Below, in pieces: positions 942-20,425 of a stretch of DNA of 64,000 nt. A program made the position numbers and the translations under genes. How positions within the stretch are numbered: position 1 is the stretch's first letter; each line of letters begins with the position of its first letter. The notes beneath the pieces were generated by a model, which saw only the letters and a list, made by a program, of their open reading frames with translations, was not told the origin of the DNA and did not search any database. Source of the DNA: Crossiella sp. SN42 (GTDB lineage Bacteria; Actinomycetota; Actinomycetes; Mycobacteriales; Pseudonocardiaceae); the NCBI RefSeq assembly GCF_023897065.1, contig NZ_JAMHIV010000001.1:434001-498000 (forward strand). Reading direction: 5' to 3'.

Positions 942-2282
942 ATGACCCGACCGATCCTGTTCTGCTGCACCCAGTCGACCGGGCTGATCAACTCTAGCCT
1001 CGCGGTGGCGGGTGAGCTGGCCAGGCGGGGCGTGCCCGACCTGTGGTTCGCCTCGGATGAGAACCGCAGGGTCGAGGTCGAGAAGCTGGCCGCGCGTTCG
1101 TCTGTCCAGTTCGTCTCACTCGGTGCGGTCAACCCCGCCTTCGCCGCGACCATGTGGGACGACCGGACCTACCGGGCGGTCACCGGCCGGTCCCGGTTCG
1201 CCGCCTACCGGGCCCGGATCGCGCAGTCGATGGACCCGGAGTACTTCCGCGACCGCTACCGCCGCCTCGACGAAGCGGTGGCCGACATCCAGCCCGCGCT
1301 GATGGTGATCAACAGCCTGTGCCACCACGCCCTGCTGGTGGCGATGACCCGCAAGATCCCGTTTGTGCTCACCGCGCCGTTCCTGCCCAGCGACATCTGC
1401 CAGGGCAGCCTGCCGCCGGGTTTCCCGGTGCCGCAGTCCGGGCTGCCGAGGGTGATGACCAGGGCGCAGAAGCTGGCGCACTGGTGGTTCCGCTGGCGAA
1501 TGCGGACCCTGTTCCTGCGGCCCTCACTGCTGGGCCAAGCGGTCAAGTACGACAAGGTGATGCGGGAGTTCGGCGTGGACCGGTCCTGCTACCAGCCGCA
1601 GACCGCGGTGGACGCCGCCGAGCTGATCCTGTGCTTCTCCTTGCTGGAGCTGGACTATCCGTTCCCGGTGCCGGACAAGCTCAAGCCGCTGGGCACCCTG
1701 GTGCCGCCGCTGCCGGAGACCGACGGGACCGATCCGGTGATGCGCTGGCTGGACGAGCACGACTCGGTGGTCTACGTCGCCTTCGGCACCATCACCCGGC
1801 TGACCGAGGCCGAGGTCGGCGCGATGGTCGAGGTGGCGCGCAGACTCGACGGCAAGCGCCAGGTGCTGTGGAAGCTGCCCGCCGACCAGCAGCGTTTCCT
1901 GCCGGCGAACCTGCCCGGCAACCTGCGGATCGAGGACTGGCTGCCCTCGCAGTACGACGTGCTGGCCCATCCCAGCGTCCGGGTGTTCTTCAACCACGCG
2001 GGCAGCAACAGCTTCCACGAGGGCCTGTACTTCGGCAAACCGCTGCTGACCCGGCCGCTGTGGCTGGACTGCTACGACCACGCGGTCCGCGCGGTGGACA
2101 GCGGCGCCGGTCTCACGGTGGACCGGCCGGAGACCCTCGATGCGGACGACGTGCACCGGAAACTGTTGCGACTGCTGGAAGAACGGTCCTTCCGGGAGCG
2201 CGCGGAGCTGTTCGCGGAGTTGCAGCGCCGGACCGGCGGGGTGCGCACGGCCGCGGACCTGGTCCTGGAACTGGTGCGCTAG
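942..2282 (+). CDS. GT1-family glycosyltransferase
   Basis: This 446-residue protein is a UGT/macrolide-type glycosyltransferase (GT-B fold) that would transfer a sugar from an NDP-sugar to a small acceptor. The N-terminal half begins with an ILFCCTQSTGLINSSLA segment typical of the acceptor domain. The C-terminal half carries the donor loop: VVYVAFGTITRL, then WLPSQYDVL, then a FFNHAGSNSFHEGL motif equivalent to the HxGxxS/T-E signature, followed by PLWLDCYDHA. The start is supported by AAGGGG five bases upstream. It lies next to the SARP gene and cyclase cluster and is convergent with the SARP gene. It may glycosylate the cluster's product, but it could equally be a separate xenobiotic- or lipid-acting enzyme. 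Confidence 0.87.
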   Translation: MTRPILFCCTQSTGLINSSLAVAGELARRGVPDLWFASDENRRVEVEKLAARSSVQFVSLGAVNPAFAATMWDDRTYRAVTGRSRFAAYRARIAQSMDPEYFRDRYRRLDEAVADIQPALMVINSLCHHALLVAMTRKIPFVLTAPFLPSDICQGSLPPGFPVPQSGLPRVMTRAQKLAHWWFRWRMRTLFLRPSLLGQAVKYDKVMREFGVDRSCYQPQTAVDAAELILCFSLLELDYPFPVPDKLKPLGTLVPPLPETDGTDPVMRWLDEHDSVVYVAFGTITRLTEAEVGAMVEVARRLDGKRQVLWKLPADQQRFLPANLPGNLRIEDWLPSQYDVLAHPSVRVFFNHAGSNSFHEGLYFGKPLLTRPLWLDCYDHAVRAVDSGAGLTVDRPETLDADDVHRKLLRLLEERSFRERAELFAELQRRTGGVRTAADLVLELVR

Positions 2283-2314
2283 CCCGGACCGCGGCCGGTT
2301 GGCCACGGTCCGGG
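2283..2314. terminator. Hairpin between convergent glycosyltransferase and SARP genes
   Basis: Arms CCCGGACCG (2283-2291) and CGGTCCGGG (2306-2314) are perfect inverted repeats in the gap between two converging genes. They probably act as a bidirectional terminator; there is no T-tract, which is common in high-GC actinomycetes. Confidence 0.6.
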
Positions 2315-2327
2315 ATCGCTTGCGGCA

Positions 2328-4253
2328 TCAGGGGTCTTCGGCCTGAGCCCGTTCGGTGGCGTACAGGCGGATCAGGTCGTCCAGGGTGTAGAAGCCCGCG
2401 GAGGCGCGGATGAGGTGCTGGGCGGCCAGGCGGTCGAGCATGTGGTCGGCGTCGTGGGAGGTGCCGTCGATCAGGGCGGCCACCGTCTCGCCGGAGAAGC
2501 CGCCGCGGATGACGCTGAGGCGGCGGAACAGGCGTTGGGTGGCCAGGTCGAGACTGGCGTAGGACAGGTCGATGGCGGCGCGCACGGAGAGCTGGTCGTC
2601 GCTGTCAACCTCCAGTGCGGCCAGCCGGTTTCCGTTGTGCAGGGCCACCACGTAGTCGGCGATCCGCTGGTGCGGGTGGTTGACCAGGTTGGCCGCGGCC
2701 GCGCTGAGTGCCAGTGGCAGGTGCGCGCACAGCCTGGTCAGCTCGGCGGCGGCCGCGGGTTCGGCGTGCACCCGCTCCGGGCCGAGCATCCGGGCCAGCG
2801 CGCGTAGCGAGTCCACCGGGCTGAGCACGTCCAGGTCGAGCAGGTGCGCGCCGTCGCTGGCGGCCAGGCTGCCCAGCCGGTGCCTGCTGGTGATCACCAC
2901 GAAGCAGCCCGGACTGCCCGGCAGCAGCGGGCGGATCTGCGCGGCGTGCACCGCGTTGTCCAGTAGCACCAGCACTTTCCGGTTGGCCAGCACGGTCCGG
3001 TACATCGCGGCGGCCTCGTCCAGCTCCACCGGGACCTCGTCGGCGGGCACGCCGAGCGCGCGCAGGAACCTGGCCAGCACCCGGTTCGGCTGCACCGCGC
3101 CGTGCAAGTTCACGAAGAGCTGACCGTCGGGGAACCTGCTGCTGACCCGGTGCGCCCAGTGCACGGCCAGGGTCGTCTTGCCCACCCCCGCCGCGCCCAC
3201 CACGGCGGTGGTCATCACCGTGCCCGCTTCCTCGGCGCCGGCCAGAATCGCGTCCAGCTGGGCCAGGTAGCGGTCCCGCCCGGCCAGGCCGGGGGTGTCG
3301 CCGGGCAGCTGGGTGGGGACCTGGGCGCTGGTCTCCCGTGGCGCGCTGCGCGGCACGACCACCGCGGCCATCGGCAGTTCGCCGCGCAGCACCCGCAGGT
3401 GCGCCTCCTGGATCTCCGCGCCAGGGGTCACACCGAGGTCCTCGGCCAGGCGGCGGCGCAGCTCGGTGAACAGCCGCAGCGCCTCGGCCTGCTGTCCGCA
3501 GCCGGCCAGCGCCAGCATCAACCTGGCGTGCAGGCCCTCGTGCAGCGACTCCTCGTGCGCCAGTGGGCGCAGCCGCTCCAGCGCGGGTTCCGGGCGCCCC
3601 AGCGCGATGGACAGGTCGGCGTAGGTGAGCACCGCGTTGAGCCTGCGCTGGGACAGCGCGATCGCGGCCGGGTGCTGGCGCAGCCTGCCGACCAGGTCGC
3701 TGAGCACCGGGCCGCGCCAGCGGTGCAGCGCGGAGTCGAACAGCTCCAGCGCCGCGCCGGAGTCCTCGGCCGCGCGTTCGGCGTGGTGCACCAGCTCGTC
3801 GAACTCCAGCAGGTCCAGCTGCCCGGCCTCCACCGGCATCCGGTAGCCGTCGCGCACGGCGGTGATGATCTGTCCCTTGACCCGGCTCTCGCGGCCGGGT
3901 TGCAGGCCGCGGCGCAGCCGGGAGACATAGGAGTGCACCAGGCCCGCGCAGGTGCGCGGCGGGTTGACGCCCCAGAGCACGTCGATGATCTCGTCCCTGG
4001 TGACCACCCGATCAGGTTGCAGGGCCAGCAGGCCCAACAGACATCGTTGCTTCAGCGGGCCGATGTCCACCGGGCGGTGCGAGTGGTAGACGGTCAGCGG
4101 CCCGAGGATGTTCAGCCGCAGTCCTTTTCGTCCGCGCGGCGGACCACCCCCGCCCGGCCGGACCGGTTCCCGTTGCCCGAGTCCCGACGCGGCTCGGCGC
4201 TGCCGCGGCAACTCACCGGCAGCACTCGTTAACGAACCATGCTCTAAAGTCAC
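2328..4253 (-). CDS. SARP (AfsR/DnrI-type) regulator with NB-ARC domain
   Basis: This 641-residue pathway-specific activator has an OmpR-type winged-helix DNA-binding domain (about 47-130, from RLNILGPLTV), a bacterial transcriptional activation domain (about 140-290), and an NB-ARC ATPase domain with P-loop VGAAGVGKTTL (Lys359) and Walker B KVLVLLDN. It ends after the winged-helix region of the STAND domain and lacks the TPR tail of full AfsR. It is divergent from the terpene cyclase gene across 369 bp, so it is the likely activator of this cluster. The called GTG start adds about 45 residues before the DNA-binding domain and places two TTA codons at positions 3 and 8. No in-frame ATG or GTG exists between that start and the domain, though a TTG near residue 15 is possible. 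Confidence 0.88.
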   Translation of the reverse strand: MTLEHGSLTSAAGELPRQRRAASGLGQREPVRPGGGGPPRGRKGLRLNILGPLTVYHSHRPVDIGPLKQRCLLGLLALQPDRVVTRDEIIDVLWGVNPPRTCAGLVHSYVSRLRRGLQPGRESRVKGQIITAVRDGYRMPVEAGQLDLLEFDELVHHAERAAEDSGAALELFDSALHRWRGPVLSDLVGRLRQHPAAIALSQRRLNAVLTYADLSIALGRPEPALERLRPLAHEESLHEGLHARLMLALAGCGQQAEALRLFTELRRRLAEDLGVTPGAEIQEAHLRVLRGELPMAAVVVPRSAPRETSAQVPTQLPGDTPGLAGRDRYLAQLDAILAGAEEAGTVMTTAVVGAAGVGKTTLAVHWAHRVSSRFPDGQLFVNLHGAVQPNRVLARFLRALGVPADEVPVELDEAAAMYRTVLANRKVLVLLDNAVHAAQIRPLLPGSPGCFVVITSRHRLGSLAASDGAHLLDLDVLSPVDSLRALARMLGPERVHAEPAAAAELTRLCAHLPLALSAAAANLVNHPHQRIADYVVALHNGNRLAALEVDSDDQLSVRAAIDLSYASLDLATQRLFRRLSVIRGGFSGETVAALIDGTSHDADHMLDRLAAQHLIRASAGFYTLDDLIRLYATERAQAEDP

Positions 4254-4381
4254 GCCCCAGCCCCCAGACCTGGCGTTATGCCTCCGAACACCGTATGCGC
4301 TTACCTAGGTCGCCGATACTGCCAGAACTCGGCCACATTGACCACAGAATGCCCGGATCTCATTGCGGTGATAGTGACGAA

Positions 4382-4394
4382 ATAACCGCGTTAT
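4382..4394. promoter_or_regulatory. AT-rich palindrome in SARP/cyclase intergenic region
   Basis: ATAAC-CGC-GTTAT is a perfect inverted repeat in the 369-bp divergent region 4254-4622. This region is noticeably richer in A+T than its surroundings and must hold both promoters. It may be a protein-binding site; the function is unproven. Confidence 0.35.
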
Positions 4395-4440
4395 CTTGAT
4401 CTTACTCGGTACAGGCTTCCGCACTGCCGACCTTTGTGCC

Positions 4441-4470
4441 GGTGCAGCCGGATGCAGCCCGATGCAGGAC
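4441..4470. promoter_or_regulatory. Three tandem 10-bp TGCAGSC repeats upstream of cyclase
   Basis: GGTGCAGCCG, GATGCAGCCC and GATGCAGGAC follow each other in exact 10-bp register, one helical turn each. The first decamer occurs again at 17175-17184 in the other divergent promoter region of this cluster, and in inverted orientation at 17130-17139. This looks like a cluster-specific regulator site. Confidence 0.45.
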
Positions 4471-4524
4471 GTCCGACATCCGCGCAGCTCAGCAGGGCTG
4501 TCGCAAGCCCGTCAACGGCGGGGC

Positions 4525-4545
4525 TCGACTCCAGTTCGAGTCCAG
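4525..4545. promoter_or_regulatory. Candidate SARP-binding direct repeat
   Basis: TCGACTCCAG (4525-4534) and TCGAGTCCAG (4536-4545) are direct repeats spaced 11 bp apart, centre to centre, 78 bp upstream of the cyclase start. SARP proteins classically bind TCGAG-like heptamer direct repeats at 11- or 22-bp spacing upstream of the -10 element, so this is a good candidate target of the divergent SARP. Confidence 0.55.
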
Positions 4546-4622
4546 CCGCACGGCCAGGAGATCTCGCTACGGTTTTGAGCGGGGCCCTTACCCGATACAC
4601 CGGCAAATAGGGGTGGCTGCGC

Positions 4623-6350
4623 ATGGTTTTTGTGAACGAACCAGTTGTGAATTCCCCTGAGCTGACCGGGCGGACCGCTGAGGTGGTGCGCAAGGCGGTG
4701 GATCACCTGTTTGCGCGGCAACGGCCGGACGGCGCGTGGACCGATCGGCTTTCCTCGTCCACGGTTTCCACCGCACTCGGCCTGCTGGCCCTGGCCACCG
4801 CGGATGAGCAGCGCTACCGGGACCGCATCGAGCTGGGCATGGACTGGCTGCGCGCGCACCAGCGCGAGGACGGCGGCTGGAGCATGGCCGACAAGTTCGC
4901 GCCGAGCAGCCCCGGCATGACCGCCTTCGCCATCGCCGCCTGCCACCGGCTGGACCGGGAGGGCTCCGCCGAGCGGATCGCCAGGGGCCACAAGTTCATC
5001 GAAGCCAACGGTTCCTTCGACGTCATCCCCGGAATGCGTGGCCCAGGGCCGAAAACCTGGCCTGCCGCGGCGCCGGTGGCCTGGTCGCTGGTGGGGCTGC
5101 GCGATATCAAGGACCAGCCCACGCTGCCGATTGAGATCATGTTGCTGCCGCCCAAGCTGCGCAACAAGGTCTCCATCGGCATGCCCGCGGTGCTCGCCCT
5201 GGGACTGATGCAGGCCAAGGTGATCCCGGCCAGCGCGCCCCGGCGTTTCCTGCGCTGGCTGGCCCGGCCGAGGGCGCTGGCCTGGCTGCGTTCGGTGCTG
5301 GGGCCCAACGGGGGCGTGGAAGAGTGCCCGATGATCTCCGCGCTGATGTACCTCGGACTGCACGCCGCCGAGCTCGGCCCGGACATCCAGCAGGCCTCGC
5401 TGGACTACCTGCTGGACACCCAGCGGCCGGACGGGTCCTGGGCGATCGACCGCGACCTGGAGATCGCGGTGACCTGCTACGCGGTGCACGCGCTGGCCGA
5501 GCACATCGACGTGGCCACCGACTCCCGGCTGCGGCGCACCCGCGACTGGCTGCTCTCCACCCAGTGGACCGAACCGTTCAAGCCGTTGAACATCCCGGCC
5601 GGCGCCTGGTCCTGGAACGTGCCGTCCGGTTGGCCGGAGTCCGAGGACACCGCGGTCGCGCTGTCCACGCTCGGGCTGCTCGGCCTGTCCAGGGAGCACC
5701 CCAAGGTGGCCGACGGGCTGCGCTGGCTGCGGGTGCGGCAGAACCGCAACGGCTCCTGGTCGGAGTGGGTGCGCAACTCCTTCATCCTCAACGACCGGCC
5801 GTGCACCGGGGTCACCGCGCACGTGGTGATGGCCCTGCACCAGCACGGTGAGCCGCGCGGCACCAGGGCGGCCATCGACCGCGCGCTGCGCTGGTACCAC
5901 GGCGACCAGCTGCCGGACGGATCGCTGCCCTCGCTGTGGTTCCGGGACGGCACGCACGGCACCGCCAAGGTGCTGGAGACCTACGCCGAGCTGGGCACGC
6001 CGAACCACCCGGTGGCGGTGCGGGCCCGGAAGTGGTTGTGGGACAACCAGGCTCCCTCGGGCGCGTGGCCGGTCAGCGTGCAGACCAGCCAGCCAGGCGA
6101 GACCGTGGAGGAGACGGCCTGGGCGGTGTACTCGCTGCTGCGGGCGGGCACCTCGCCGTGGGACCCGCGGCTGGTGCGCGCGGTGGACTGGCTGGTGGCC
6201 CGGCAGAACGAGGCGGGCAGCTGGCCGGAGGCGCCGGTGGGCCTGTACTTCGAGGACCTCTGCTACAGCGACGACCTGATCGCGCACACCTACACGCTGC
6301 GGGCGCTGGCGTGCTGGCTGCGCCTGGCCGGCCAGTCCCAGCGCCCGTGA
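4623..6350 (+). CDS. Squalene-hopene-cyclase-like class II terpene cyclase with ESED motif
   Basis: This 575-residue protein is built from prenyltransferase/squalene-oxidase (QW-type) repeats such as RPDGAWTD, REDGGWS, RPDGSWAID and RNGSWSEW, the alpha-barrel architecture of squalene-hopene and class II diterpene cyclases. At the position of the proton-donating DxDDTA motif it reads E339-S-E-D342-TAV, followed by the expected downstream VTAHVVMAL block. The length is a little under squalene-hopene cyclase (about 630), and no signal peptide is present. It would cyclise a linear prenyl chain, or its epoxide, by protonation, probably at the membrane. Neighbouring prenyl diphosphate synthase, UbiA protein and FAD monooxygenase fit a meroterpenoid or higher-terpenoid pathway. 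The P450 gene begins inside its stop codon. The altered acid motif makes the substrate uncertain. Confidence 0.85.
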   Translation: MVFVNEPVVNSPELTGRTAEVVRKAVDHLFARQRPDGAWTDRLSSSTVSTALGLLALATADEQRYRDRIELGMDWLRAHQREDGGWSMADKFAPSSPGMTAFAIAACHRLDREGSAERIARGHKFIEANGSFDVIPGMRGPGPKTWPAAAPVAWSLVGLRDIKDQPTLPIEIMLLPPKLRNKVSIGMPAVLALGLMQAKVIPASAPRRFLRWLARPRALAWLRSVLGPNGGVEECPMISALMYLGLHAAELGPDIQQASLDYLLDTQRPDGSWAIDRDLEIAVTCYAVHALAEHIDVATDSRLRRTRDWLLSTQWTEPFKPLNIPAGAWSWNVPSGWPESEDTAVALSTLGLLGLSREHPKVADGLRWLRVRQNRNGSWSEWVRNSFILNDRPCTGVTAHVVMALHQHGEPRGTRAAIDRALRWYHGDQLPDGSLPSLWFRDGTHGTAKVLETYAELGTPNHPVAVRARKWLWDNQAPSGAWPVSVQTSQPGETVEETAWAVYSLLRAGTSPWDPRLVRAVDWLVARQNEAGSWPEAPVGLYFEDLCYSDDLIAHTYTLRALACWLRLAGQSQRP

Positions 6351-7666
6351 ACCCGGCCACCTCGCTGCCGCCGGGTCCGCGGATGCCGGTGCTGGCCCAG
6401 ACCGTGCTCTCCGCGATCCAGCCGCTGGAGTTCGCCAAGGACTGCCGGCGCAAGTACGGGAACCTGTTCACCATCAAGGTCTTCCCGGTGGGCACCGTGG
6501 TGTGCGCGGCCGATCCGGCGGTGATCCGGCGCGCGGTCACCGCGGAGTCCTCGACGCTGCTGGCCGGGGACGCGAACCGGGTGATGGACTTCGTGGTCGG
6601 GCCGCGGTCGGTGCTGCTGCTGGACGGGCCGGAGCACGTGCGCAGCCGCCAGGTGCTGTTGCCGCCCTTCCGGGGGCCGAGTGTGCAGCGCTACCAGGAC
6701 ACCATCGCCGAGGTCACCGCCGAGGCGGTGCGCCGCTGGCCTGCCGGGACTCCGGTGCCGCTGCTGCCCAGGATGCAGCACGTGACGCTGGAGATCATGA
6801 TGCGGGTGGTCTTCGGCATCACCGACCTCCAGCGGCTGGCCGGGCTGCGCGCGCTGGTGCCGAAGCTGCTGCACATGAACCCGGCGGTGGTGCTGTTCCC
6901 GTTGCTGCGCAAGGACTGGGGCCGCTACAGCCCCGGCGGCCGGTTCGCCAGGGTGAAGGCCGCGGTGGACGAGATCCTCTACAGCGAGATCGCCCGCCGA
7001 CGCTCCGAAGTGGACAGTGAGCGCTCCGACGTGCTCTCGCTGCTGCTGCGGATGCGGCACGCCGACGGGCAGCCGGCCAGCGACGAGGACTTGCGGGACA
7101 ACCTGATCACCGTGCTCGCGGTCGGCCACGAGACCACCGCGACCACGCTGTCCTGGGCCTTCGAACGGCTGGTGCGGCACCCGGAAGCGCTGGCCCGCCT
7201 GGAAAGCGAGCTGGCCGACGGGCAGCACGAGTACCTGGACGCGGTGATCAACGAGACGCTGCGGGTGCGGCCGGTGGTGGGCGACATCGCCCGCATCCTG
7301 GCCGCACCGGCCACCATCGACGGCTACCGGCTGCCCGCCGGGATCATGCTCGCGCTCTCCCTCGGGCTGCTGCACTCCTGCCCCCGGCGCTATCCCGAAC
7401 CGGAGGAGTTCCGGCCGGAGCGCTTCCTCGGCGAGGCGCCGGGACCGGAACTGTTCCTGCCCTTCGGCGGCGGCCCGCACCGGTGTCTCGGCGCGGCCTT
7501 CGCCATGACCACCATGCGCACGGTGATCAGCACCGTGCTGGCACACACCCGGCTCCGGGCCGCGGCCCCGGAACCGGAGCGCCAACGAGCCATGGGCCCG
7601 GTGCTCACGCCCGCCCGTGGGGCGGAGGTGGTTCTCCAGCGCCGCAAGGCTTTCCGAACCAGCTGA
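6347..7666 (+). CDS. Cytochrome P450, canonical oxygen-activation motif
   Basis: The 439-residue P450 starts with GTG overlapping the cyclase stop (GTGA), so it is translationally coupled to the cyclase. It has I-helix GHE262TT, the K-helix ExxR as ETLR, and heme loop FGGGPHRC380LG. A proline-rich start (SLPPGPRMP) without a membrane anchor makes it resemble CYP110-like and other eukaryote-style soluble bacterial P450s more than the other four P450s here. The likely role is hydroxylation or further oxidation of the cyclised terpene skeleton. It needs external ferredoxin and reductase, which are not encoded in this window. Confidence 0.9.
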   Translation: MNPATSLPPGPRMPVLAQTVLSAIQPLEFAKDCRRKYGNLFTIKVFPVGTVVCAADPAVIRRAVTAESSTLLAGDANRVMDFVVGPRSVLLLDGPEHVRSRQVLLPPFRGPSVQRYQDTIAEVTAEAVRRWPAGTPVPLLPRMQHVTLEIMMRVVFGITDLQRLAGLRALVPKLLHMNPAVVLFPLLRKDWGRYSPGGRFARVKAAVDEILYSEIARRRSEVDSERSDVLSLLLRMRHADGQPASDEDLRDNLITVLAVGHETTATTLSWAFERLVRHPEALARLESELADGQHEYLDAVINETLRVRPVVGDIARILAAPATIDGYRLPAGIMLALSLGLLHSCPRRYPEPEEFRPERFLGEAPGPELFLPFGGGPHRCLGAAFAMTTMRTVISTVLAHTRLRAAAPEPERQRAMGPVLTPARGAEVVLQRRKAFRTS

Positions 7667-7676
7667 GGAGAACAAC

Positions 7677-8681
7677 ATGCAGTCCGCTGACCCCCGCCCC
7701 GAGCTCGCCCTGTCCGCGCTCACCGAACTGGCCGAGAGCAAGCTGCGCACCCGCTGGTCCCGCACCTCCAGCCTGCTGAGCACCATGTGCCACTACGCGC
7801 TGGTGCCCAGCGGCAAGCTGTTCCGGCCCATCCTGCTGCTGGAGTCCGCCTGCGCGGTGGGCGGCTCGGCGGAGATGGTGCTGCCCGCCGCGGTGGGCGC
7901 GGAGTGCGGCCACGTGGCCAGCCTGATCCACGACGACATCATCGACGGCGACGAGCTGCGCCGCGGCAGGCGTTCGGTGCACAGCCGATTTGGCGTGGGC
8001 AACGCGATCGTGGCCGGGGACGCGCTGATCTTCGACCTGTTCGCCGGGCTCGCCGAGTGCCGCTGGACCGGTGTGCCGGACAGCAGGGTGGCCGCCGCGC
8101 TGGAGGCGGTGGCCCGCTGCGGCCTGGACCTGTGCCGGGGCCAGAGCATGGAGGAGGAGCTGTGCCGGGGCCTGCGCTTCGACCTGGACGGCTACCTGAC
8201 CATGATCAGCCTGAAGACCGCGGCGTTCTTCCAGGGCGCCTGCGAGAGCGGCGCGATCCTGGCCGGTGGCACCCCGGAGCAGGTGGAGGCGCTGTCCCGG
8301 TACGCGCTGGCGCTGGGCACCGCCTTCCAGATCCAGGACGACATCCTGGGCTACACCGGCGAGGCCGACACCATGGGCAAGGAGAACACCAGTGACAGCC
8401 GCAACGGCAGGCTCACCCTGCCGGTCCTGCTGGCCTACCGCGCCGGTGGCCACCCGGAGCGCCGGTTGCTGCGCCAGGCACTCACCGGCGAGGAGAACCT
8501 CGGGCACCGCCACGAGCAGATCCTGGACGTGCTCGACCGCACCGGCGCGCTGGAGTCCGCGGCCAAGATGGCCTGGACCTACGCGGAGAACTCCGGCTCG
8601 GCGCTGGTGAAGCTGCCACCCTCGCCGAGCCGGGACCGGCTCGCCTTCTTCGCCGAACTGGCCATCGACCGGGACCGCTAG
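7677..8681 (+). CDS. Polyprenyl diphosphate synthase, probably C20 or longer
   Basis: This 334-residue all-trans isoprenyl diphosphate synthase condenses IPP with allylic diphosphates. The first aspartate-rich motif is D86-D-I-I-D90 and the second is QD221-D222-ILGY, where the last Asp is replaced by Gly. The GKENTSDSRNGRLTLPV element matches the region after the second motif. Residues -4 and -5 before the first motif are Ser and Ala, not the aromatic residues that limit chain length to C15, so GGPP, GFPP or longer is expected. The start at 7677 was chosen because GAGGAG lies six bases upstream, just after the P450 stop; the open frame continues upstream to 7617. The 3' end overlaps the convergent UbiA gene by four bases. 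Confidence 0.9.
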   Translation: MQSADPRPELALSALTELAESKLRTRWSRTSSLLSTMCHYALVPSGKLFRPILLLESACAVGGSAEMVLPAAVGAECGHVASLIHDDIIDGDELRRGRRSVHSRFGVGNAIVAGDALIFDLFAGLAECRWTGVPDSRVAAALEAVARCGLDLCRGQSMEEELCRGLRFDLDGYLTMISLKTAAFFQGACESGAILAGGTPEQVEALSRYALALGTAFQIQDDILGYTGEADTMGKENTSDSRNGRLTLPVLLAYRAGGHPERRLLRQALTGEENLGHRHEQILDVLDRTGALESAAKMAWTYAENSGSALVKLPPSPSRDRLAFFAELAIDRDR

Positions 8682-9658: not shown

Positions 9659-9681
9659 AATGCCTCCCTCGGGGACGGGTC

Positions 9682-12711: not shown

Positions 12712-14653
12712 GGGACACCACGCCTCTCCGGTTGTCACTGAACATCTCTCGCGCCAGCCTGCCCATGTAGTAGACGATCTCCTCGTGGTTGGTGGAGGTG
12801 ACGAAGTTGCGGGCGCCGGCCTTGTAGTACAGGGAGGTCTCCTGCTCCCCCACGGTGTGCGCGTAGGACTCCCCGCGCCGCAGCGCCAGGCACATCGCGG
12901 GCACGTCACAGGCGATGGTCACGTTGTGCCGCACGTGGAACATGTCGCCCTCGACCTCCACCAGCGGCAGGGTCTCGTTGGCGTACAACGGGGATGGCTC
13001 CCGGCCGGGGCTGGAGTAGGCGGGCAGGGTGAGCAGGTCGTACTCGAAGGCGTTGTCCAGCAGGGCCACGTGCTCGCTGGGCACCCTGGGCAGCATCGAC
13101 TCGCGCCACCAGCGCCGCAGCTCTTCCTTGGCCTCCACGGTGCCGTAGACGTACTCCACCACCGGGCCCAGCACGTCGGAGTCGGTGAAGGAGCTGTTCA
13201 GCCCGTTCTGGAACGGCTCGGCCGCCGGGTGGGTGCTGCGCTCGAACCAGTCGATCAGCGAGCGGATCGTCTCGGACTGGGTGAGGCCGCCGAGCTCGCG
13301 CAGCGGGCCCCAGAGGAACCGGAACACCGGGTTCTCCGCGACCAGCCTGGAGAAGAAGATGAACCGGTGCATGTACCGGTTGTCCTGCGGGGTCATCGTG
13401 TTGTGCGCGATCAGGTACATGAAGTCGTCGTTGTTGCCGCGCACCGTGACCAGCCCGTGCTTGGCCCGGTCCTCGGCGTAGGCGGTGTTGGGCAGGATCA
13501 GCATCGGGTAGACCGCGACCCTGGAGACGTGGTTGGCCAGCCGGTCGTAGCCCTCCATGAAGGACTCCACGGTCTCCCCCGGCGCGCCCCAGATCAGCTC
13601 GGCGTAGCAGGCCATGCCCTCCTTGCCGAGCCATTCGGCCAGGCTCTCCCAGTCGTTGACCTTCATGTTGCGCCGCTGCATGCCCTCCAGAGCGTCCGGG
13701 TTGAGGGTCTGGAGAGCCAGGGTGAACGAGCTGTGCAGTCCGGCTTCCTTCATCGCGCTGACGATCTGGTAGAACAGCTTGGACTTGTTCTTGGCCCAGG
13801 AGGTCTCGATGCTCTTGGGGAAGCCGAGCCGCTGCCGGATCTCGATGACGTCCTGGACGAACTCCAGGTCGATGGGCAGCATGCCGAAGTTGGCGTCGCA
13901 CATGACGATGGTGTGCACCTTGTGCTTGGCGAACAGCTCCACCTCCTGGCGCAGCCGCTCCCTGGAGAAGGCCCGCACCCGCTGTCCGACCGCGCCGCCC
14001 CAGTAGCAGAAGGAGCAGCGGTAGGGGCAGCCGCGGTTGGTCTCCATCAGCGCCACGTCGTAGCGGAAGTTGCCCTCGTCGTCGGTGAGCTCCAGGGTGC
14101 CGGTGAGCACCGGGGAGGCGATGGTGTCCAGGTCGTCGATCCGCGGGCGTTCCTCGGTGGTGACGAAACCGCCGTGGCCGCTCTGGAAGGAGATGCCCAG
14201 GATGCCGCCGAGCTCGTTGCGGGCCTTGCCGTCCAGGTGCGCGTGCAGCAGGTCGCAGAAGGTGAACTCGCCTTCGCCGTTGACCACGATGTCCACGTCG
14301 GGGAACATGCCGAAGACCCGTTTGGCCTGGTTGGCCACGTGGTTGCCGCCGAAGACCACCCAGCCGTCCGGCTTGAGCTGCTTGTAGGTCTCGGCCAGCG
14401 CGGCGAAGGAGCGGAAGTTCCAGCCCAGCACCGAGAAGGCGATGATGTCCGGCGCCTCGCCGGCGAACAGCTCGCTGGCCATGCCGAACAGCGTCTTGCC
14501 ACCGTCAAAGTTGATGATCTTGATGTCGAAGTTCGCGGCCAGCTTCTCGTCCTGCAGCGCGGTCGCCTTGAGATAGCCGGCAGCCAGCGGCATGGACTCC
14601 AGGGCCATCTCCCAGATGCCCTGCTGGATCAACCACACCTGTCTCCGCGTCAT
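12704..14653 (-). CDS. Cobalamin-type radical SAM enzyme (B12-binding domain plus radical SAM)
   Basis: This 649-residue protein has an N-terminal Rossmann-like domain of the B12-binding class (to about residue 160, with GGNHVAN and VVNGEGEFTF) and then a radical SAM barrel with the [4Fe-4S] cysteines C209-PYR-C213-SF-C216-YWG. The B12 domain lacks an obvious DxHxxG, as in class B radical SAM methyltransferases, where cobalamin binds base-off without His. Such enzymes methylate unactivated carbons, or occasionally rearrange skeletons without methyl transfer. It is a paralogue of the gene at 17262. Its place in an operon between P450s and a methyltransferase suggests carbon methylation or another radical step on the terpenoid. 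Confidence 0.87.
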   Translation of the reverse strand: MTRRQVWLIQQGIWEMALESMPLAAGYLKATALQDEKLAANFDIKIINFDGGKTLFGMASELFAGEAPDIIAFSVLGWNFRSFAALAETYKQLKPDGWVVFGGNHVANQAKRVFGMFPDVDIVVNGEGEFTFCDLLHAHLDGKARNELGGILGISFQSGHGGFVTTEERPRIDDLDTIASPVLTGTLELTDDEGNFRYDVALMETNRGCPYRCSFCYWGGAVGQRVRAFSRERLRQEVELFAKHKVHTIVMCDANFGMLPIDLEFVQDVIEIRQRLGFPKSIETSWAKNKSKLFYQIVSAMKEAGLHSSFTLALQTLNPDALEGMQRRNMKVNDWESLAEWLGKEGMACYAELIWGAPGETVESFMEGYDRLANHVSRVAVYPMLILPNTAYAEDRAKHGLVTVRGNNDDFMYLIAHNTMTPQDNRYMHRFIFFSRLVAENPVFRFLWGPLRELGGLTQSETIRSLIDWFERSTHPAAEPFQNGLNSSFTDSDVLGPVVEYVYGTVEAKEELRRWWRESMLPRVPSEHVALLDNAFEYDLLTLPAYSSPGREPSPLYANETLPLVEVEGDMFHVRHNVTIACDVPAMCLALRRGESYAHTVGEQETSLYYKAGARNFVTSTNHEEIVYYMGRLAREMFSDNRRGVVSHD

Positions 14654-14695
14654 CGGCTCGTCCTCACCTGTGTGTCCGAAGTAGACAGTGCGTGG

Positions 14696-15853
14696 TCACC
14701 AGGCCACCGGCAGCGCGCTGGGTCCCTGGTCGAGCAGCCCGGCCCGCTGCGGCAGCTCATCCACCGGCACGGCCAGGCGCAGCCCCGGGAAGCTCGTGGC
14801 GAGCTCGGTGAAGGCGACCTGGAGCTCCAGCCGGCCCACCGCGGCGCCGAGGCAGTGGTGCACACCGTGCCCGAAGGCCAGGTGCAGGTTGCCGGGGCGG
14901 GTGCGGTCGAACCGGCCGGGGTTGGGGAAGCGGCGCTCGTCCCGGTTGGCGCAGGCCGGTGGCGCGATCACCATGTCCCCGGCCTTGATCAGCACCTCGC
15001 CGATGCGCACGTCGTCCTGCGCGATCCGGACCAGGCCGCCGATTTCCGAGGCGTAGCGCAGGATCTCCTCGATCGCGCCCGGCACCAGCTCCGGATCGTC
15101 CACCAGGGCCTGGTAGTCCTCGGGGTGGGTGAGCAGGGTGAGCGCGCCCAGTCCGATGGTGTTGCCCGCGGTGACGTAACCGGCGATCAGGATGCTCTCC
15201 GCCATGGTGAGCAGCTCCCGGTCGTTGAGCCGGTCGTTGTCCTCCTCGCGCACCGCGATCAGGTCGCTGAGCAGGTCCTGGCCCGGGTTGCGCTGCTTGT
15301 CCGCGATCAGCCCGGCGCAGTACTCGTCCAGGCTCTTGCCCGCGGCCATCACCTCCTCCTGGCTGAAGGCGTCCAGCGACAGGATCGCCTCCGACCAGCG
15401 CCGGAAGTCGGCCTGGTCCACCACGGGCACGCCGAGCAGCTCGGTGATCACCCCGATGGACATGGGGAAGGCGAAGATCTCCACCAGGTCAGCGGGCGGA
15501 CCGGCCGCGCGCAGGTCGCCTGCCAGCTGCTTGGCCAGGGCCTGCACCTTGGGGCGCAAGGTTTCCACCCCGCGCACGGTGAAGGCCTTGGACACCAGGC
15601 GGCGCAGCCGGGTGTGCCCCGGCGGGTCCTGGAACAGCGAGTCCTCGGTGGCCGCGGCCGCGCCCGGGGCGCGCACGCCGAAGCGCAGGTCGGAGAGCAC
15701 GAACCGGACGTCCTCGTAGCGGGTGACCAGCCAGGCCGGTTCCCCGGAGTTGGTGGTGACCCGGCTGACCGGCTCCTGCGCGCGCAGCCGCGCGTACTCC
15801 ACCGGCGGTTCGGTGACGGACGGGCGGGCGAACGGGAAGGGCGGTGCCCCCAT
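14696..15853 (-). CDS. Cytochrome P450 lacking the I-helix acid/alcohol pair
   Basis: This 385-residue soluble P450 has K-helix EEILR and heme loop FGHGVHHC334LGAA. In the I-helix, where A-G-x-E/D-T-T is expected, it reads AGYV227-T228-A229, so the acid is Val and the second Thr is Ala. Loss of this pair is known in P450s with non-standard proton delivery or substrate-assisted chemistry. The ATG has GAAGGAG six bases upstream. It is closely related to the next upstream P450, with shared ITEPPAEYARL-like and RYEDVRFVL segments, and lies 14 bp from it, so the pair probably arose by tandem duplication. Confidence 0.9.
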   Translation of the reverse strand: MGAPPFPFARPSVTEPPVEYARLRAQEPVSRVTTNSGEPAWLVTRYEDVRFVLSDLRFGVRAPGAAAATEDSLFQDPPGHTRLRRLVSKAFTVRGVETLRPKVQALAKQLAGDLRAAGPPADLVEIFAFPMSIGVITELLGVPVVDQADFRRWSEAILSLDAFSQEEVMAAGKSLDEYCAGLIADKQRNPGQDLLSDLIAVREEDNDRLNDRELLTMAESILIAGYVTAGNTIGLGALTLLTHPEDYQALVDDPELVPGAIEEILRYASEIGGLVRIAQDDVRIGEVLIKAGDMVIAPPACANRDERRFPNPGRFDRTRPGNLHLAFGHGVHHCLGAAVGRLELQVAFTELATSFPGLRLAVPVDELPQRAGLLDQGPSALPVAW

Positions 15854-15867
15854 CGGCGTCTCCTTCG

Positions 15868-17058
15868 TTACCAGGTCACGAGCAGGGCGGCGGGGCTCTG
15901 GTCGAGCAGGCCGGTGCGCAGTGGGATCCGCTCCACCGGCAGCACGGTGCGCATCAGCGGGAAGGCCGAGCTGAGCACTTCCAGCGTCACGTGCAGTTCC
16001 ATCCGCCCCAGCGCGGCGCCGAGGCAGTGGTGGATGCCGTGGCCGAAAGCCAGGTGCGGGTTCTCCGGCCGGGTGATGTCGAACCGGGCCGGTTCGGGGA
16101 ACAGGCTGGCGTCGACGTTGGCCGCGCCCAGCTCGGCGAAGACGGTGTCGCCCTTGCGGATCAGCGCCTCGCCGACCTGGACGTCGTCCTTGGCGATGCG
16201 CATCAGGCCGCGTTTGCCGAACTGGCAGCGCAGGATCTCCTCCACCGCGCCCTCGATCAGCCCGGGATCGGCCACCAGGCGGTCGTACTGGGCGCGGTTG
16301 GTGAGCAGGGTGAGCATGCCCATGGTGATCGCGTTGACCGTGCTGACGTGCCCGGCCACCAGCAGGGTGACCGCCATGGTGCGCAGCTCGCCGGTGCTGA
16401 GCTTGTCGTCCTCGTTGTCCCGCACCGCGATCAGCGCGCTCATCAGGTCGCTGCCGGGGTCGCGGCGCTTCGCCTCGATCAGCTCGGCCACGTAGCCCTG
16501 CAGGTTGTTCCAGGCCGCGCCGATCTGCTCGGGGGTGTGCGCGGTCAGGCTGATCACCGCCTCGGACCAGGCGCGGAAGTCCGCCCGGTCCGGGGTGGGC
16601 ACGCCGAGCAGCTCGCTGATCACGTTGATGGACAACGGGAAGGCGAAGTCGCTGACCAGCTCGGCAGGCGGGTAGTCATCGGCCATCTCGGCGGCCAGCC
16701 GTTCGGCGGTGCGCCGCACCGCGGGGCGCAGCTCGGCCATCCGGCGGGCGGTGAACGCCCGGCCGACCAGGCGGCGCAACCGGCTGTGCCCTGGCGGATC
16801 CTGGAACAGCGACTCCTCGGGAGCGTCCTCGGCGTTGTCGCTGGCCGCGCCGGCGAAGCGGATGCTGAACCGGGGGTCGGCGAGCACGAAGCGGACGTCC
16901 TCGTACCGGGTCACCATCCAGGCGTGCGTGCCGTTCTCGGTGACCACCCTGGCCACCGGGCACTCCGCCTGCAGCCGGGCGTACTCCGCTGGTGGCTCGG
17001 TGATCGAGGGCTGGGCCAGGGGCAGGGACACAGCGGGGGCCCGCTCGGGTGCGCTCAT
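15868..17058 (-). CDS. Cytochrome P450 lacking the I-helix acid, first gene of minus operon
   Basis: This 396-residue P450 has K-helix EEILR, heme loop FGHGIHHC345LGAA and an I-helix reading AGHV238-S239-T240, with Val at the usual acid position. The start at 17058 has GAGGAG six bases upstream. It heads the five-gene minus-strand operon and faces the radical SAM gene at 17262 across a 203-bp divergent region carrying inverted repeats. It is a tandem paralogue of the following P450. The role is probably oxidation, or an unusual P450 reaction, on the cluster product. Confidence 0.9.
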   Translation of the reverse strand: MSAPERAPAVSLPLAQPSITEPPAEYARLQAECPVARVVTENGTHAWMVTRYEDVRFVLADPRFSIRFAGAASDNAEDAPEESLFQDPPGHSRLRRLVGRAFTARRMAELRPAVRRTAERLAAEMADDYPPAELVSDFAFPLSINVISELLGVPTPDRADFRAWSEAVISLTAHTPEQIGAAWNNLQGYVAELIEAKRRDPGSDLMSALIAVRDNEDDKLSTGELRTMAVTLLVAGHVSTVNAITMGMLTLLTNRAQYDRLVADPGLIEGAVEEILRCQFGKRGLMRIAKDDVQVGEALIRKGDTVFAELGAANVDASLFPEPARFDITRPENPHLAFGHGIHHCLGAALGRMELHVTLEVLSSAFPLMRTVLPVERIPLRTGLLDQSPAALLVTW

Positions 17059-17129
17059 GCACGTCTCCTCACACCGCCGTCGCCGGATCCGGATTCGAGT
17101 GCTGACGCTAGAGAACGGCGCTGGTCATG

Positions 17130-17184
17130 CGGCTGCACCCGCACTGGAGCGGACCGGGGCCCGCGTCCAGCTCTGGTGCAGCCG
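17130..17184. promoter_or_regulatory. Inverted repeat in divergent P450/radical SAM promoter region
   Basis: CGGCTGCACC (17130-17139) and GGTGCAGCCG (17175-17184) are perfect 10-bp inverted arms 35 bp apart, in the 203-bp region between two diverging operons. The right arm is identical to the decamer at 4441-4450 upstream of the cyclase. TCCAG-containing elements also lie here, at 17166-17170 and 17238-17242. This is a candidate shared operator for the cluster. Confidence 0.5.
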
Positions 17185-17261
17185 GGCGCCAAGCGGGCGT
17201 CCGTAGGCTCCGGGCCGACATCGCCTTGGGCTGCAAGTCCAGTGGACGGAGGCACACCGAG

Positions 17262-19169
17262 ATGACAACCGTGGCGCTAGTGGAGATCCACTCCTGGCAC
17301 AGCTTCCTCCCGCTGGTATCCGGATACCTCCAGAGTTACGCCCGACAGGACGAGGTGGTCGCGCAGAAGTACGAGTTCGAGATCCTTTCCCGGCACACCT
17401 CGGACGGCCGGGTGGCGCTGGTGGCCGAGCTGGCCGAGCTGGACTGCGACATCTACGCGTTCAGCTGCTACATCTGGAACGGCAAGCTGGTGCGCGAGGT
17501 GCTGGAGGACCTGGTGCGCCTGCGGCCGAACGCGCAGTACCTGCTGGGCGGCCCGCAGGTGATGAACCACGGCGAGGACTACATTCCGCCGGGCGCGGAC
17601 AACGTGGCGGTGTGCAACGGCGAAGGCGAGATCACCTTCCTGGAGTACCTGCGCGAGCTGGCCAACGAGTCGCCGGACCTGGGCAAGGTGCCGGGGCTGA
17701 GCTTCCGCCGGGACGGCCGGGTGACCACCACCCTGCCGGCCGCGCGGATCAAGGAGCTCACCGAGGTGCCGAGCCCGTTCGTGGCCAACCTGTTCACCGA
17801 CTCGACCTACCACGTGGCGGTGCTGGAAACGAACCGCGGCTGCCCGTTCCGCTGCGGGTTCTGCTACTGGGGCGCGGCCACCAACGACAAGGTGCACCGC
17901 TTCGAGATGGACCGGGTCAAGGCCGACATCGAGTGGATCGCGAAGAACAACATCTACGCGGTCATGATCGCCGATGCCAACTGGGGCCTGTCCGCCCGCG
18001 ATGTGGAGCTGACCGAGTACATCGTGGAGTGCAAGGAGAAGTACGGGTTCCCGTACTGGGTGACCATCCAGTCGGCCAAGAACAGCCCGGAGCGGGTGTC
18101 CAAGATCGTGGACATCCTGTTGCGCGGTGGGCTGATCACCCGGCAGCCGATCTCCCTGCAAAGCGTCAGCGACGAGGCGCTCACCCTGATCGAGCGCAAG
18201 AACATCAAGCGGGAGACCTACTCCGAGCTCCAGCGCGACCTGCGGGCCAGGAACATCCCTTCCTTCATCGAGCTGATCTGGCCGCTGCCCGGGGAGACCC
18301 TGGGGTCCTATGTGGACGGAATCGTGCAGCTCTGCCGCACCGGCGCGGACATGATCAACGTGTACCCGCAGCTGTTGCTGCACAACACCCCGATCTACGA
18401 GCAGCGCGAGCTCTTCGGCGTGCACACCGAGCGGGTGCCCAACCCGGTCGGCGAGGCCGAGCTGGTGGTGCGCACCAAGTGGGTCAACCGGGAGCAGTAC
18501 GACGAGGGCGTGTGGTTCTGGTACGCGCTGCTGTCGGTCTACGACTCGCGCGGGCTGTACTTCGTCTCCAGCTACCTGGACCGCAAGGGCATCATGTCCT
18601 TCGACGAGCTGTTCTGGGCGGTGATCGCCTTCTACCGGGAACACCAGGAGTACGAGCTCGCCCGCTACATCAAACGCTCGGTGGAGACCCTGGACCACTA
18701 CGAGTACAGCAACGGCGGCATGGTCGCCCACCAGATCCAGCACAGCCACCGGCAGGAGGCGGACCGGCTGATGCACGAGTTCGCCTCGGCCCAGCCCTGG
18801 TGGTCGGACCCGACCGTGCGCGCGCTGTTCGAGCTGGACATGGTGGCCCGGCCCTACCCCTACATCGAACCGGTGCAGGAACCCGGGGTTCCGTTGAAGG
18901 AGATGAACATCTTCGAGATGGGCGAGCACCACGTGACCGTGGACCTGCCGCCGCACCTGGTCGCCGAGCTGGTCGAGCGCCAGCTGCTGGACGATCCCTC
19001 GGCACACCGGGTGCGCCTGGACTTCACCGGGAAGAACAAGCAGGTCTGCGCGGATGAGAACGACTCGCTCGCCAACGGCCTGTACTGCGCCAACTTGCTG
19101 GAGCAGATGCTGGACATGCTGCCCGAGTACCAGGTCTGTGACACCGCACTGACGGGAGACGCCCGATGA
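17262..19169 (+). CDS. Second cobalamin-type radical SAM enzyme
   Basis: This 635-residue paralogue of the 12704-14653 gene has an N-terminal B12-binding-like domain with LLGGPQVMNHGEDY and NGEGEITF, and radical SAM cysteines C194-PFR-C198-GF-C201-YWG. The barrel then shows ADANWGL and ELIWPLPGET blocks shared with the paralogue (ELIWGAPGET there). The start MTTVALVEIH at 17262 was chosen over an open upstream extension because GGAGG lies about nine bases upstream and the protein aligns with its paralogue from here. Its stop overlaps the P450 start (ATGA). It would catalyse a second radical carbon methylation or rearrangement. Confidence 0.87.
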   Translation: MTTVALVEIHSWHSFLPLVSGYLQSYARQDEVVAQKYEFEILSRHTSDGRVALVAELAELDCDIYAFSCYIWNGKLVREVLEDLVRLRPNAQYLLGGPQVMNHGEDYIPPGADNVAVCNGEGEITFLEYLRELANESPDLGKVPGLSFRRDGRVTTTLPAARIKELTEVPSPFVANLFTDSTYHVAVLETNRGCPFRCGFCYWGAATNDKVHRFEMDRVKADIEWIAKNNIYAVMIADANWGLSARDVELTEYIVECKEKYGFPYWVTIQSAKNSPERVSKIVDILLRGGLITRQPISLQSVSDEALTLIERKNIKRETYSELQRDLRARNIPSFIELIWPLPGETLGSYVDGIVQLCRTGADMINVYPQLLLHNTPIYEQRELFGVHTERVPNPVGEAELVVRTKWVNREQYDEGVWFWYALLSVYDSRGLYFVSSYLDRKGIMSFDELFWAVIAFYREHQEYELARYIKRSVETLDHYEYSNGGMVAHQIQHSHRQEADRLMHEFASAQPWWSDPTVRALFELDMVARPYPYIEPVQEPGVPLKEMNIFEMGEHHVTVDLPPHLVAELVERQLLDDPSAHRVRLDFTGKNKQVCADENDSLANGLYCANLLEQMLDMLPEYQVCDTALTGDAR

Positions 19170-20356
19170 CCACCCAGGACATGCCCGCCCTCCCCTTCGA
19201 CCGCCCCACCATCCTGGACATCCCGCCGATGCTGCGGCAGCTCCAGGCCGAGCGCCCGATCACCAAGGTGCGCACCATGATGGGCGACGAGGCCTGGCTG
19301 GTCACCCGCTACGAAGAGGCCAAGTCGCTGTTCACCGACCACCGCCTGATCCGCTCGCACCCGGACCCGGAGAACGCGGCGAAGGTCAGCGAGTCGGCCA
19401 TGATGGGCGGCCCGGTCGGCACCTACGAGACCGAGGACTACGACCACACCCTGATGCGCTCCCTGCTCGGCGGTTCCTTCTCCGCCAAGCGGATGCGCAT
19501 GCTGCGGCCGCGCATCGGCGGCCTGGTCGACGACCTGCTCGACGAGATGGCCAAGAAGACGCCGCCGGCCGACCTGCACCAGGAGCTGGCGTTCCCGTTG
19601 CCGGTGCTGGTGATCTGCGAGCTGCTCGGCGTGCCGTATGAGGACCGCGACCAGTTCCGCATCTGGTCCGAGGGCGCGGCCGACATGTTCAACGGCGAGC
19701 ACTCCCTTGAGCAGCTCACCGAGCTGCGCGCCTACACCGGTTCCCTCATCGAGGCGCGCCGCACCAACCCGGGCGAGGACGTGATCTCCGACATCGCCCG
19801 CGCCTACAACGAGGGCAAGCTGAACATGGACTACGCGGTCGGTCTGGCCACCGGCCTGCTCTTCGCCGGGCACATGACCACCGTGGTGCTGGTGGAGTTC
19901 GGCACCCTGCACATGCTCACCTATCCCGAGCAGCGCAAGCGCCTGGTGGAGGACCCCTCGCTGGTGGAGTCCGCGGTGGAGGAGATGCTGCGCTTCACCG
20001 ACGCCGGCGGCGGCAACTTCGTCCGCTACGCCCGGGATGAGATCAAGATGGGCGATGTCACCATCAACTTCGGCGACGCGGTGCTGATCAGCGGCATCGC
20101 GGCCAACCGGGACCCGCGCTTCTTCACCGACCCGGACACCTTCGACGTCACCCGCGAACCCAACTCGCACCTGTCCTTCGGCAGCGGACGGCACCTGTGC
20201 ATCGGCGCCACGCTGGCGCGGGTGGAGCTGGAGGCGGTGTTCAGCCGGTTGTTCCAGCGCTTCCCGAACCTGGAGCTGGCGGTGCCGGTTGAGGAGCTGG
20301 AGCTGCTGGACAACCTGCTGCCCGGCGGCCTGGTGAGCCTGCCGGTGAAGTGGTGA
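19166..20356 (+). CDS. Cytochrome P450 with Met at the I-helix acid position
   Basis: This 396-residue P450 is coupled to the radical SAM gene by an ATGA overlap. It has K-helix EEMLR and heme loop FGSGRHLC345IGAT. The I-helix reads AGHM237-T238-T239, so the conserved acid is Met while both Thr residues remain. It is not closely related to the tandem P450 pair on the other strand, since the C-helix and substrate-recognition regions differ. The tight coupling suggests it acts directly before or after the second radical SAM step. Confidence 0.9.
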   Translation: MTTQDMPALPFDRPTILDIPPMLRQLQAERPITKVRTMMGDEAWLVTRYEEAKSLFTDHRLIRSHPDPENAAKVSESAMMGGPVGTYETEDYDHTLMRSLLGGSFSAKRMRMLRPRIGGLVDDLLDEMAKKTPPADLHQELAFPLPVLVICELLGVPYEDRDQFRIWSEGAADMFNGEHSLEQLTELRAYTGSLIEARRTNPGEDVISDIARAYNEGKLNMDYAVGLATGLLFAGHMTTVVLVEFGTLHMLTYPEQRKRLVEDPSLVESAVEEMLRFTDAGGGNFVRYARDEIKMGDVTINFGDAVLISGIAANRDPRFFTDPDTFDVTREPNSHLSFGSGRHLCIGATLARVELEAVFSRLFQRFPNLELAVPVEELELLDNLLPGGLVSLPVKW

Positions 20357-20376
20357 CGCGGCAAGGCTAGTTGACG

Positions 20377-20422: not shown

Positions 20423-20425
20423 TGC

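Follow-up and report, generated by a model that had tools for sequence, protein, structure and literature searches.

Two titles cited in PMC13307353 report prenylation followed by epoxidation and cyclization for phenalinolactone and, for a bacterial meroterpenoid, a class II cyclase of a non-canonical kind. For phenalinolactone, terminal epoxidation of geranylgeranyl diphosphate (GGPP) was proposed, with a squalene-monooxygenase homologue as the epoxidase (available part of PMC5618424); atolypene from Amycolatopsis tolypomycina is described as a tricyclic sesterterpenoid from the ato cluster expressed in S. albus (available part of PMC10301674). Here, we analyze a gene cluster of Crossiella sp. 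SN42 that encodes a comparable core together with two cobalamin (B12)-binding radical S-adenosylmethionine (SAM) enzymes, termed rSAM1 and rSAM2. The cluster lies in a stretch of 64,000 nucleotides (contig NZ_JAMHIV010000001.1, positions 434,001 to 498,000; hereafter, the window) of a 9.72-Mb genome. The bacterial meroterpenoid of the second title is presumably atolypene; the ato pathway is said to combine a UbiA enzyme, an FAD-dependent monooxygenase (FMO), the methyltransferase AtoD and the non-canonical class II cyclase AtoE, and the phenalinolactone pathway genes are reportedly named PlaT1-T4. To our knowledge, there is no B12 radical SAM gene in the phenalinolactone cluster and no radical SAM gene in the ato cluster. 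Compared by description, the Crossiella locus resembles phenalinolactone biosynthesis, as far as the sources cover it, in its prenylation/epoxidation/cyclization logic and its several oxygenases; it differs in that phenalinolactone is a glycoside with a squalene-monooxygenase-like epoxidase, whereas the FMO encoded here belongs to the FAD_binding_3 family. We read the cluster as a putative meroterpenoid pathway in which a prenylation-epoxidation-cyclization core is joined by two C-methylating radical SAM enzymes (probability of roughly 65%), with a meroditerpenoid as the most likely product, because the core gene set (prenyl synthase, UbiA, FMO and a cyclase with an ESED motif) fits this logic. 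The features of the locus, in window coordinates, are the following.

2328-4253, minus strand: SARP-type regulator (Pfam BTAD and NB-ARC), left edge of the conserved block
4623-6350, plus strand: class II (squalene-hopene-like) cyclase (Pfam SQHop_cyclase_C, 1.6e-37)
6347-7666, plus strand: cytochrome P450a (Pfam, 1.3e-62 on the longer open reading frame 5936-7666), GTGA-coupled to the cyclase gene
7677-8681, plus strand: trans-polyprenyl diphosphate synthase (Pfam, 9.7e-57 on 7617-8681; NCBIfam), with a Shine-Dalgarno-like sequence for the start at 7677
8678-9658, minus strand: UbiA prenyltransferase (Pfam, 1.2e-32)
9682-10857, plus strand: FMO (Pfam FAD_binding_3), candidate terminal epoxidase
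10778-12010, minus strand: P450b (Pfam)
12007-12711, minus strand: SAM-dependent methyltransferase, MT (Pfam, scanned as 12007-12909), candidate O-methyltransferase
12704-14653, minus strand: rSAM1 (Pfam B12-binding and Radical_SAM), KedN5 family
14696-15853, minus strand: P450c (Pfam)
15868-17058, minus strand: P450d (Pfam)
17262-19169, plus strand: rSAM2 (Pfam B12-binding and Radical_SAM, scanned as 17127-19169), CysS-like
19166-20356, plus strand: P450e (Pfam), joined to rSAM2 by an ATGA overlap, end of the conserved block on the right
20372-20428, no strand assigned: long hairpin 3' of P450e (-48.9 kcal/mol, z -9.59), likely transcription end
2280-2326, no strand assigned: hairpin between the glycosyltransferase and SARP genes (-30.2 kcal/mol, z -3.25)
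942-2282, plus strand: UDPGT/MGT-like glycosyltransferase (Pfam UDPGT, 7.9e-24), outside the conserved block

Every enzyme class named in a first-pass annotation of this DNA, including the five P450s and two radical SAM enzymes, was confirmed by Pfam, with the B12-binding score of rSAM2 (31.9) marginally below the Pfam cut-off of 32.1. The tight operons with a SARP gene described there were borne out as well: same-strand genes overlap by 4 bp at cyclase/P450a (GTGA), P450b/MT (ATGA) and rSAM2/P450e (ATGA), and by 8 bp at MT/rSAM1. The genes for the SARP, a likely pathway activator by its sequence family, and the cyclase diverge across a 369-bp gap, while the prenyl synthase/UbiA and FMO/P450b pairs are convergent—the cluster is therefore organized in several operons. 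Similarity by blastn to two other Crossiella genomes (G108 and G086) runs from 2289 or 2324 to 20354, with one extra short match in G086 at 26.7 kb of the window, and similarity to a genome of the same species (G055) runs from 1 to 20408, the limit of the compared stretch. We therefore place the cluster at 2.3-20.4 kb, from the SARP gene to the last P450 gene (about 18 kb), with the two hairpins on either side of the block. The glycosyltransferase, which the annotation had counted as a member, is present, but it is missing from the block common to the window and the two other Crossiella genomes and is separated from the SARP gene by a hairpin; we therefore take it as optional and probably no member of the conserved cluster. 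By tblastn (E 1e-8), it was found, among 18 stretches, only in the window and the same-species genome.

Taken together, the core enzymes are those one would expect of a prenylation-epoxidation-cyclization pathway. In the cyclase, ESED (E339-S340-E341-D342) replaces the DXDD acid motif of class II enzymes and aligns with the DVDD of squalene-hopene cyclase (SHC). Either ESED or ETED is present in all 15 aligned members of its clade, window included, two outgroup cyclases (40-41% identity) have ETDD and EADD at the motif, and E339 and D342 are invariant in 16/16 aligned sequences. The UbiA protein keeps both Asp-rich prenyltransferase motifs (GDYFDRELD and DRDSD), and among solved structures its sequence is nearest to digeranylgeranylglyceryl phosphate synthase (PDB, 3.7e-13). 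The prenyl synthase has small residues before DDIID, which fit a product of C20 or longer, and is likely of the GGPP type; the label 'long-chain' in the first-pass annotation goes beyond this, and its 'higher terpenoid' is better read as a meroterpenoid on such a chain. Elsewhere, the same genome (G000:C4:54835-56448) encodes another squalene-hopene-like cyclase, which shares 37% identity with that of the cluster.

The same enzymes could also be arranged in a diterpene route without prenyl transfer, in which the cyclase would form a copalyl-type diphosphate, UbiA would act as a class I terpene cyclase of the platencin type and the FMO would serve as a late hydroxylase. UbiA-type diterpene synthases are indeed found beside class II cyclases in actinomycetes, as for platensimycin/platencin (available part of PMC10301674), and one related locus (G751) has no FMO match in 80 kb around its cyclase gene; yet the FMO is kept in 16 of the 17 related loci described below, the 15 aligned clade cyclases have ESED/ETED rather than DXDD, and the intact Asp motifs and closest structural match of UbiA speak for prenyl transfer. 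Structure prediction bears on both readings. The AlphaFold2 model of the cyclase (mean predicted local distance difference test score, pLDDT, 86.6) found SHC as its best Foldseek match, with a template modeling (TM) score of 0.81 by query and 0.75-0.76 by target, followed on the query scale by oxidosqualene cyclase (0.77 query, 0.62 target). It also matched drimenyl and diterpene diphosphate cyclases, namely the drimenyl diphosphate synthase SsDMS (0.67-0.70 query, 0.79-0.84 target), Rv3377c (0.62 and 0.73) and PtmT2 (0.58 and 0.63), and by target length its fit to SsDMS equals or exceeds that to SHC. The best fold match, SHC, acts on a neutral substrate and may count weakly for the meroterpenoid reading. 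On balance, we consider the route without prenyl transfer unlikely.

To gain a broader view of the distribution of this cluster type, we defined a related locus as one with a cyclase at least 54% identical to that of the window. At least 15 such loci are carried by 13 of the 346 family genomes searched; they include the window and its copy in G055, which belong to one species and are not independent. Two more were found among 80 genomes of one genus (that of G290, read as Amycolatopsis), for a total of 17. Genome searches for cyclase, KedN5-type and CysS-like genes kept the best three candidates per genome, and these counts are lower bounds. No cyclase relative beyond the window was found at E 1e-95 in a class-wide sample of 394 genomes. 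UbiA and the prenyl synthase accompany the cyclase in 17/17 related loci. A KedN5-type radical SAM gene lies near the cyclase gene in 13 of the 17 (window and same-species copy counted), spread over six genera, so its presence is not an accident of one strain; named carriers include Kutzneria sp. CA-103260, Actinokineospora fastidiosa, Kibdelosporangium aridum, Kibdelosporangium persicum and Amycolatopsis coloradensis. Because KedN5-type genes (E 1e-100) occupy at least 43 places in 34 of the 346 family genomes, chance neighbourhood is very unlikely—of the order of 1 in 1,700 per locus within 20 kb, assuming 8.5 Mb per genome.

Homologues of MT at E 1e-8 were found in Crossiella only. A clade-2 methyltransferase goes with rSAM1 in 8/8 loci of a second cluster type, and also in Nonomuraea terrae, and G763 and G751 lack it; this co-occurrence is suggestive only, and both methyltransferases were rejected as markers of the radical SAM partner. 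An open frame of 303 amino acids, lying antisense to the P450a gene of G159 and used as a query, was dismissed as a shadow frame. Another Crossiella genome contains a second cluster (G086:C1:8839001-8899000) with UbiA, prenyl synthase, P450, SARP and KedN5-type radical SAM genes, in whose 60 kb no cyclase or FMO match was found and the P450a match is partial. Additionally, sequences JOAA01000033/JOAA01000053 are named Rhodococcus rhodnii NRRL B-16535; their genome (G093, 12.4 Mb) groups by genus with the Kibdelosporangium genomes G065 and G146, and the name looks wrong.

Turning to the radical SAM enzymes, rSAM1 scores 994.8 bits against the NCBIfam model of the KedN5 family (NF033712, cut-off 700) and belongs to that family, whereas rSAM2, at 304.8 bits, falls outside it. 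KedN5 itself serves an enediyne, and the meroterpenoid setting proposed here sets rSAM1 apart from it. Among solved structures, rSAM1 matches TokK (4.1e-64) and CysS (2.3e-58), and rSAM2 matches CysS over nearly its full length (1.2e-149). The AlphaFold2 model of rSAM2 (pLDDT 87.8) superimposes on CysS (9n1b) with TM scores of 0.92/0.93 at 38% identity. In rSAM1, the iron-sulfur motif CxxxCxxC (C209/C213/C216) and a lower axial Trp78 are intact, and both features are present in all 42 radical SAM sequences aligned, rSAM2 included. According to the available part of PMC12846815, a Trp sits under the cobalt in both CysS and the carbapenem enzyme TokK, and CysS, from the cystobactamid pathway, methylates sp3 carbons iteratively, as TokK is also described to do. 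C-methylation, raised beside rearrangement in the first-pass annotation, is the likeliest outcome, and we favour radical methylation of sp3 carbon by both enzymes, with considerable confidence for methylation as such.

Not all B12 radical SAM enzymes are methylases, and the pair could instead rearrange, contract or desaturate the skeleton, using cobalamin in the manner of OxsB or BchE. In favour of this are the ring contraction and ring formation described for this enzyme class and weak matches to the BchE and HpnJ models, far below their cut-offs. Against it, rSAM1 lies far above the KedN5 cut-off, and the rSAM2 model reaches a TM score of 0.47 to OxsB as against 0.92 to CysS. Moreover, the axial residue is the Trp of TokK and CysS; for OxsB, Asn/water is described at this place, and for TsrM an Arg. 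We regard a non-methylating role as improbable. A further point of comparison is HpnR, which performs B12 radical SAM methylation of a terpenoid: against the NCBIfam model 'hopanoid C-3 methylase' (cut-off 650), rSAM1 reaches 36.6 and rSAM2 24.2 bits. The earlier statement that such enzymes are rare in terpenoid clusters stands in that the arrangement is out of the ordinary, with the qualification that hopanoids offer a precedent in a family to which neither enzyme belongs.

CysS was assayed and crystallized with pantetheinylated methoxybenzoate and binds the substrate carbonyl through Trp188 and Trp271 (available part of PMC12846815). These residues correspond to Val and Thr in rSAM2, and a Trp at either position is found in 0/15 rSAM2-type sequences, those linked to non-ribosomal peptide synthetase (NRPS) genes included. 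Pfam scanning of the cluster genes turned up neither a carrier protein nor an NRPS gene, whereas 9 of 12 other CysS-like contexts have an adenylation/condensation-group gene nearby (Pfam-checked in G019, G155 and G341), which suggests that rSAM2 has probably kept the chemistry of CysS and changed its substrate. The three contexts that have no such gene, in Kutzneria, in A. fastidiosa and around one of the K. persicum copies, are linked or possibly linked to the present cluster type. In K. persicum (G065:C51, C49), at least four CysS-like genes occur on three stretches, two of them on one stretch (L110) together with a class III aminotransferase gene, and adenylation/condensation-type genes (blast grouping) lie near three of them (L110, L111).

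These contexts also raise the thought that rSAM1 and rSAM2 belong to another nearby pathway and stand in the cluster by coincidence, the more so as KedN5-type relatives elsewhere adjoin phosphoenolpyruvate (PEP) mutase, ketosynthase, HpaB or aromatic lyase genes, just as most CysS-like relatives sit near NRPS-type genes. In the window, though, both genes are placed between P450 genes of the shared block and overlap MT and P450e, respectively; the block ends at P450e in the two other Crossiella genomes; and a KedN5-type gene recurs in 13 of the 17 related loci. In the right flank, the first gene scanned is for a sigma factor; the other nine account for a regulator together with oxidoreductases, glycoside hydrolases and transport functions. 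Coincidence is, in our judgement, very improbable. In Kibdelosporangium banguiense, a KedN5-type gene lies beside PEP mutase and ketosynthase genes, which suggests a phosphonate pathway. The genome of strain SN42 itself holds a further region (G000:C1:167-185 kb) with a KedN5-like radical SAM gene (50% identity to rSAM1), two more B12-binding radical SAM genes and one further radical SAM gene, together with carbamoyltransferase, ketosynthase, carrier protein, PIG-L deacetylase-like and aminotransferase genes; it represents another pathway and was rejected as an explanation of the cluster.

Phylogenetic reconstruction sheds light on how the pairing may have come about. A tree of 42 radical SAM sequences, which left the rSAM2 proteins of Kutzneria and G157 to a later topology test, groups the rSAM1 proteins found in Crossiella with those of the second cluster type in one clade (14 rows, support 100/99), together with sequences from Nonomuraea terrae (on an 11-kb contig with no core genes) and Saccharothrix obliqua. 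The radical SAM protein of locus G093a falls elsewhere, with that of G043 (99/91), in whose 20 kb no matches to the other cluster genes were found; because of this grouping outside the rSAM1 clade, the tree suggests that this cluster type gained a KedN5-type gene on at least two occasions. On the Kutzneria chromosome, rSAM1 and a CysS-like gene are found in one cluster, while in A. fastidiosa and K. persicum the rSAM2 gene and the rSAM1 cluster are on separate contigs, each close to a contig end, and linkage is not shown. A single rSAM2 clade uniting Crossiella, Kutzneria, A. fastidiosa and K. persicum was disfavoured by the approximately unbiased test (p-AU 0.0156), a comparison that involves long branches and a group chosen with an earlier tree in view; CysS-like partners may therefore have joined such clusters more than once. 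On the cyclase tree, the radical SAM labels require 6 changes, compared with an average of 10.7 after shuffling, with A. fastidiosa and K. persicum counted as pair carriers.

Several observations weigh against a C-methylated meroterpenoid. The fold of the cyclase model alone does not separate a neutral substrate from a diphosphate, since SsDMS, which acts on a diphosphate, outscores SHC by target length, though it is lower by query. The solved relatives of the FMO are named monooxygenases and hydroxylases, none of them an epoxidase. Furthermore, in four of the 17 related loci (G065a, G290, G763 and G751) no radical SAM gene was found nearby—the contig of G065a beginning 4 kb upstream of the cyclase gene—and these enzymes are accordingly better viewed as tailoring than as core functions. 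Membership of the rSAM1 clade does not fix the substrate either, because no cyclase, UbiA, prenyl synthase or FMO match was found in 40 kb around the S. obliqua member (G254:C6:40001-80000). Finally, rSAM2 lacks the two substrate-binding Trp residues of CysS, but NRPS-linked relatives lack them too, so their loss does not point to a terpenoid substrate in particular. The surroundings of the S. obliqua gene include a SARP-like regulator, two EryCIII-like glycosyltransferase genes and an O-methyltransferase gene.

For the meroterpenoid pathway, we infer the following order of steps, acceptor type, methylations and product from the gene set. The prenyl synthase would supply GGPP (or a longer chain), and UbiA would transfer the prenyl group to a small acceptor; the FMO would then epoxidize the distal double bond, and the ESED cyclase would protonate the epoxide to give a fused polycycle. 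Five P450s would oxidize this polycycle and MT would methylate an oxygen, whereupon rSAM1 and rSAM2, using methylcobalamin and the 5'-deoxyadenosyl radical, would add at least one methyl group to sp3 carbon. The added carbon might be placed on the skeleton or might lengthen an O-methyl group to a branched alkoxy group, in which case MT, whose gene overlaps that of rSAM1, could supply the methoxy group; such lengthening, by analogy with CysS, is the most specific version of the mechanism. In its boldest form, a CysS-type enzyme freed from carrier-bound substrates and a KedN5-type enzyme would act on the cyclized meroterpenoid, converting O-methyl to ethoxy, isopropoxy or tert-butoxy groups and/or methylating unactivated ring carbons, with the pairing assembled more than once—a tentative proposal that we hold to be doubtful as a whole.

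As for novelty, the core and the enzyme families are known, and the combination is unusual and recurrent. The first-pass annotation knew of no described pathway with this gene combination; this is not supported for the core, given the phenalinolactone precedent and the non-canonical cyclase of the cited title. For the combination with the radical SAM pair, we recognized no description of such a cluster or product in the open-licence literature, which is weak evidence of novelty. Beyond the cluster, the genes scanned in the right flank of the window (33960-57836) encode a cellulase (GH5 and CBM2), an alpha-galactosidase, two GH2 enzymes, an ABC transporter and a solute-binding protein—unremarkable functions in taking up and using carbohydrates or peptides.

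Most tailoring of terpenoids is carried out by P450s and ordinary methyltransferases, and recurrent clusters whose B12 radical SAM methylases work on a meroterpenoid would make complex terpenoids accessible to C(sp3)-methylation at a late stage. In rSAM2, the cluster offers a CysS-like enzyme apparently without need for a carrier protein, which bears on substrate choice in this group, and, being compact and bounded, it is amenable to heterologous expression. If the proposed pairing of activities is true, it would define a class of branched-alkoxy or quaternary C-methyl meroterpenoids across Crossiella, Kutzneria and their relatives.

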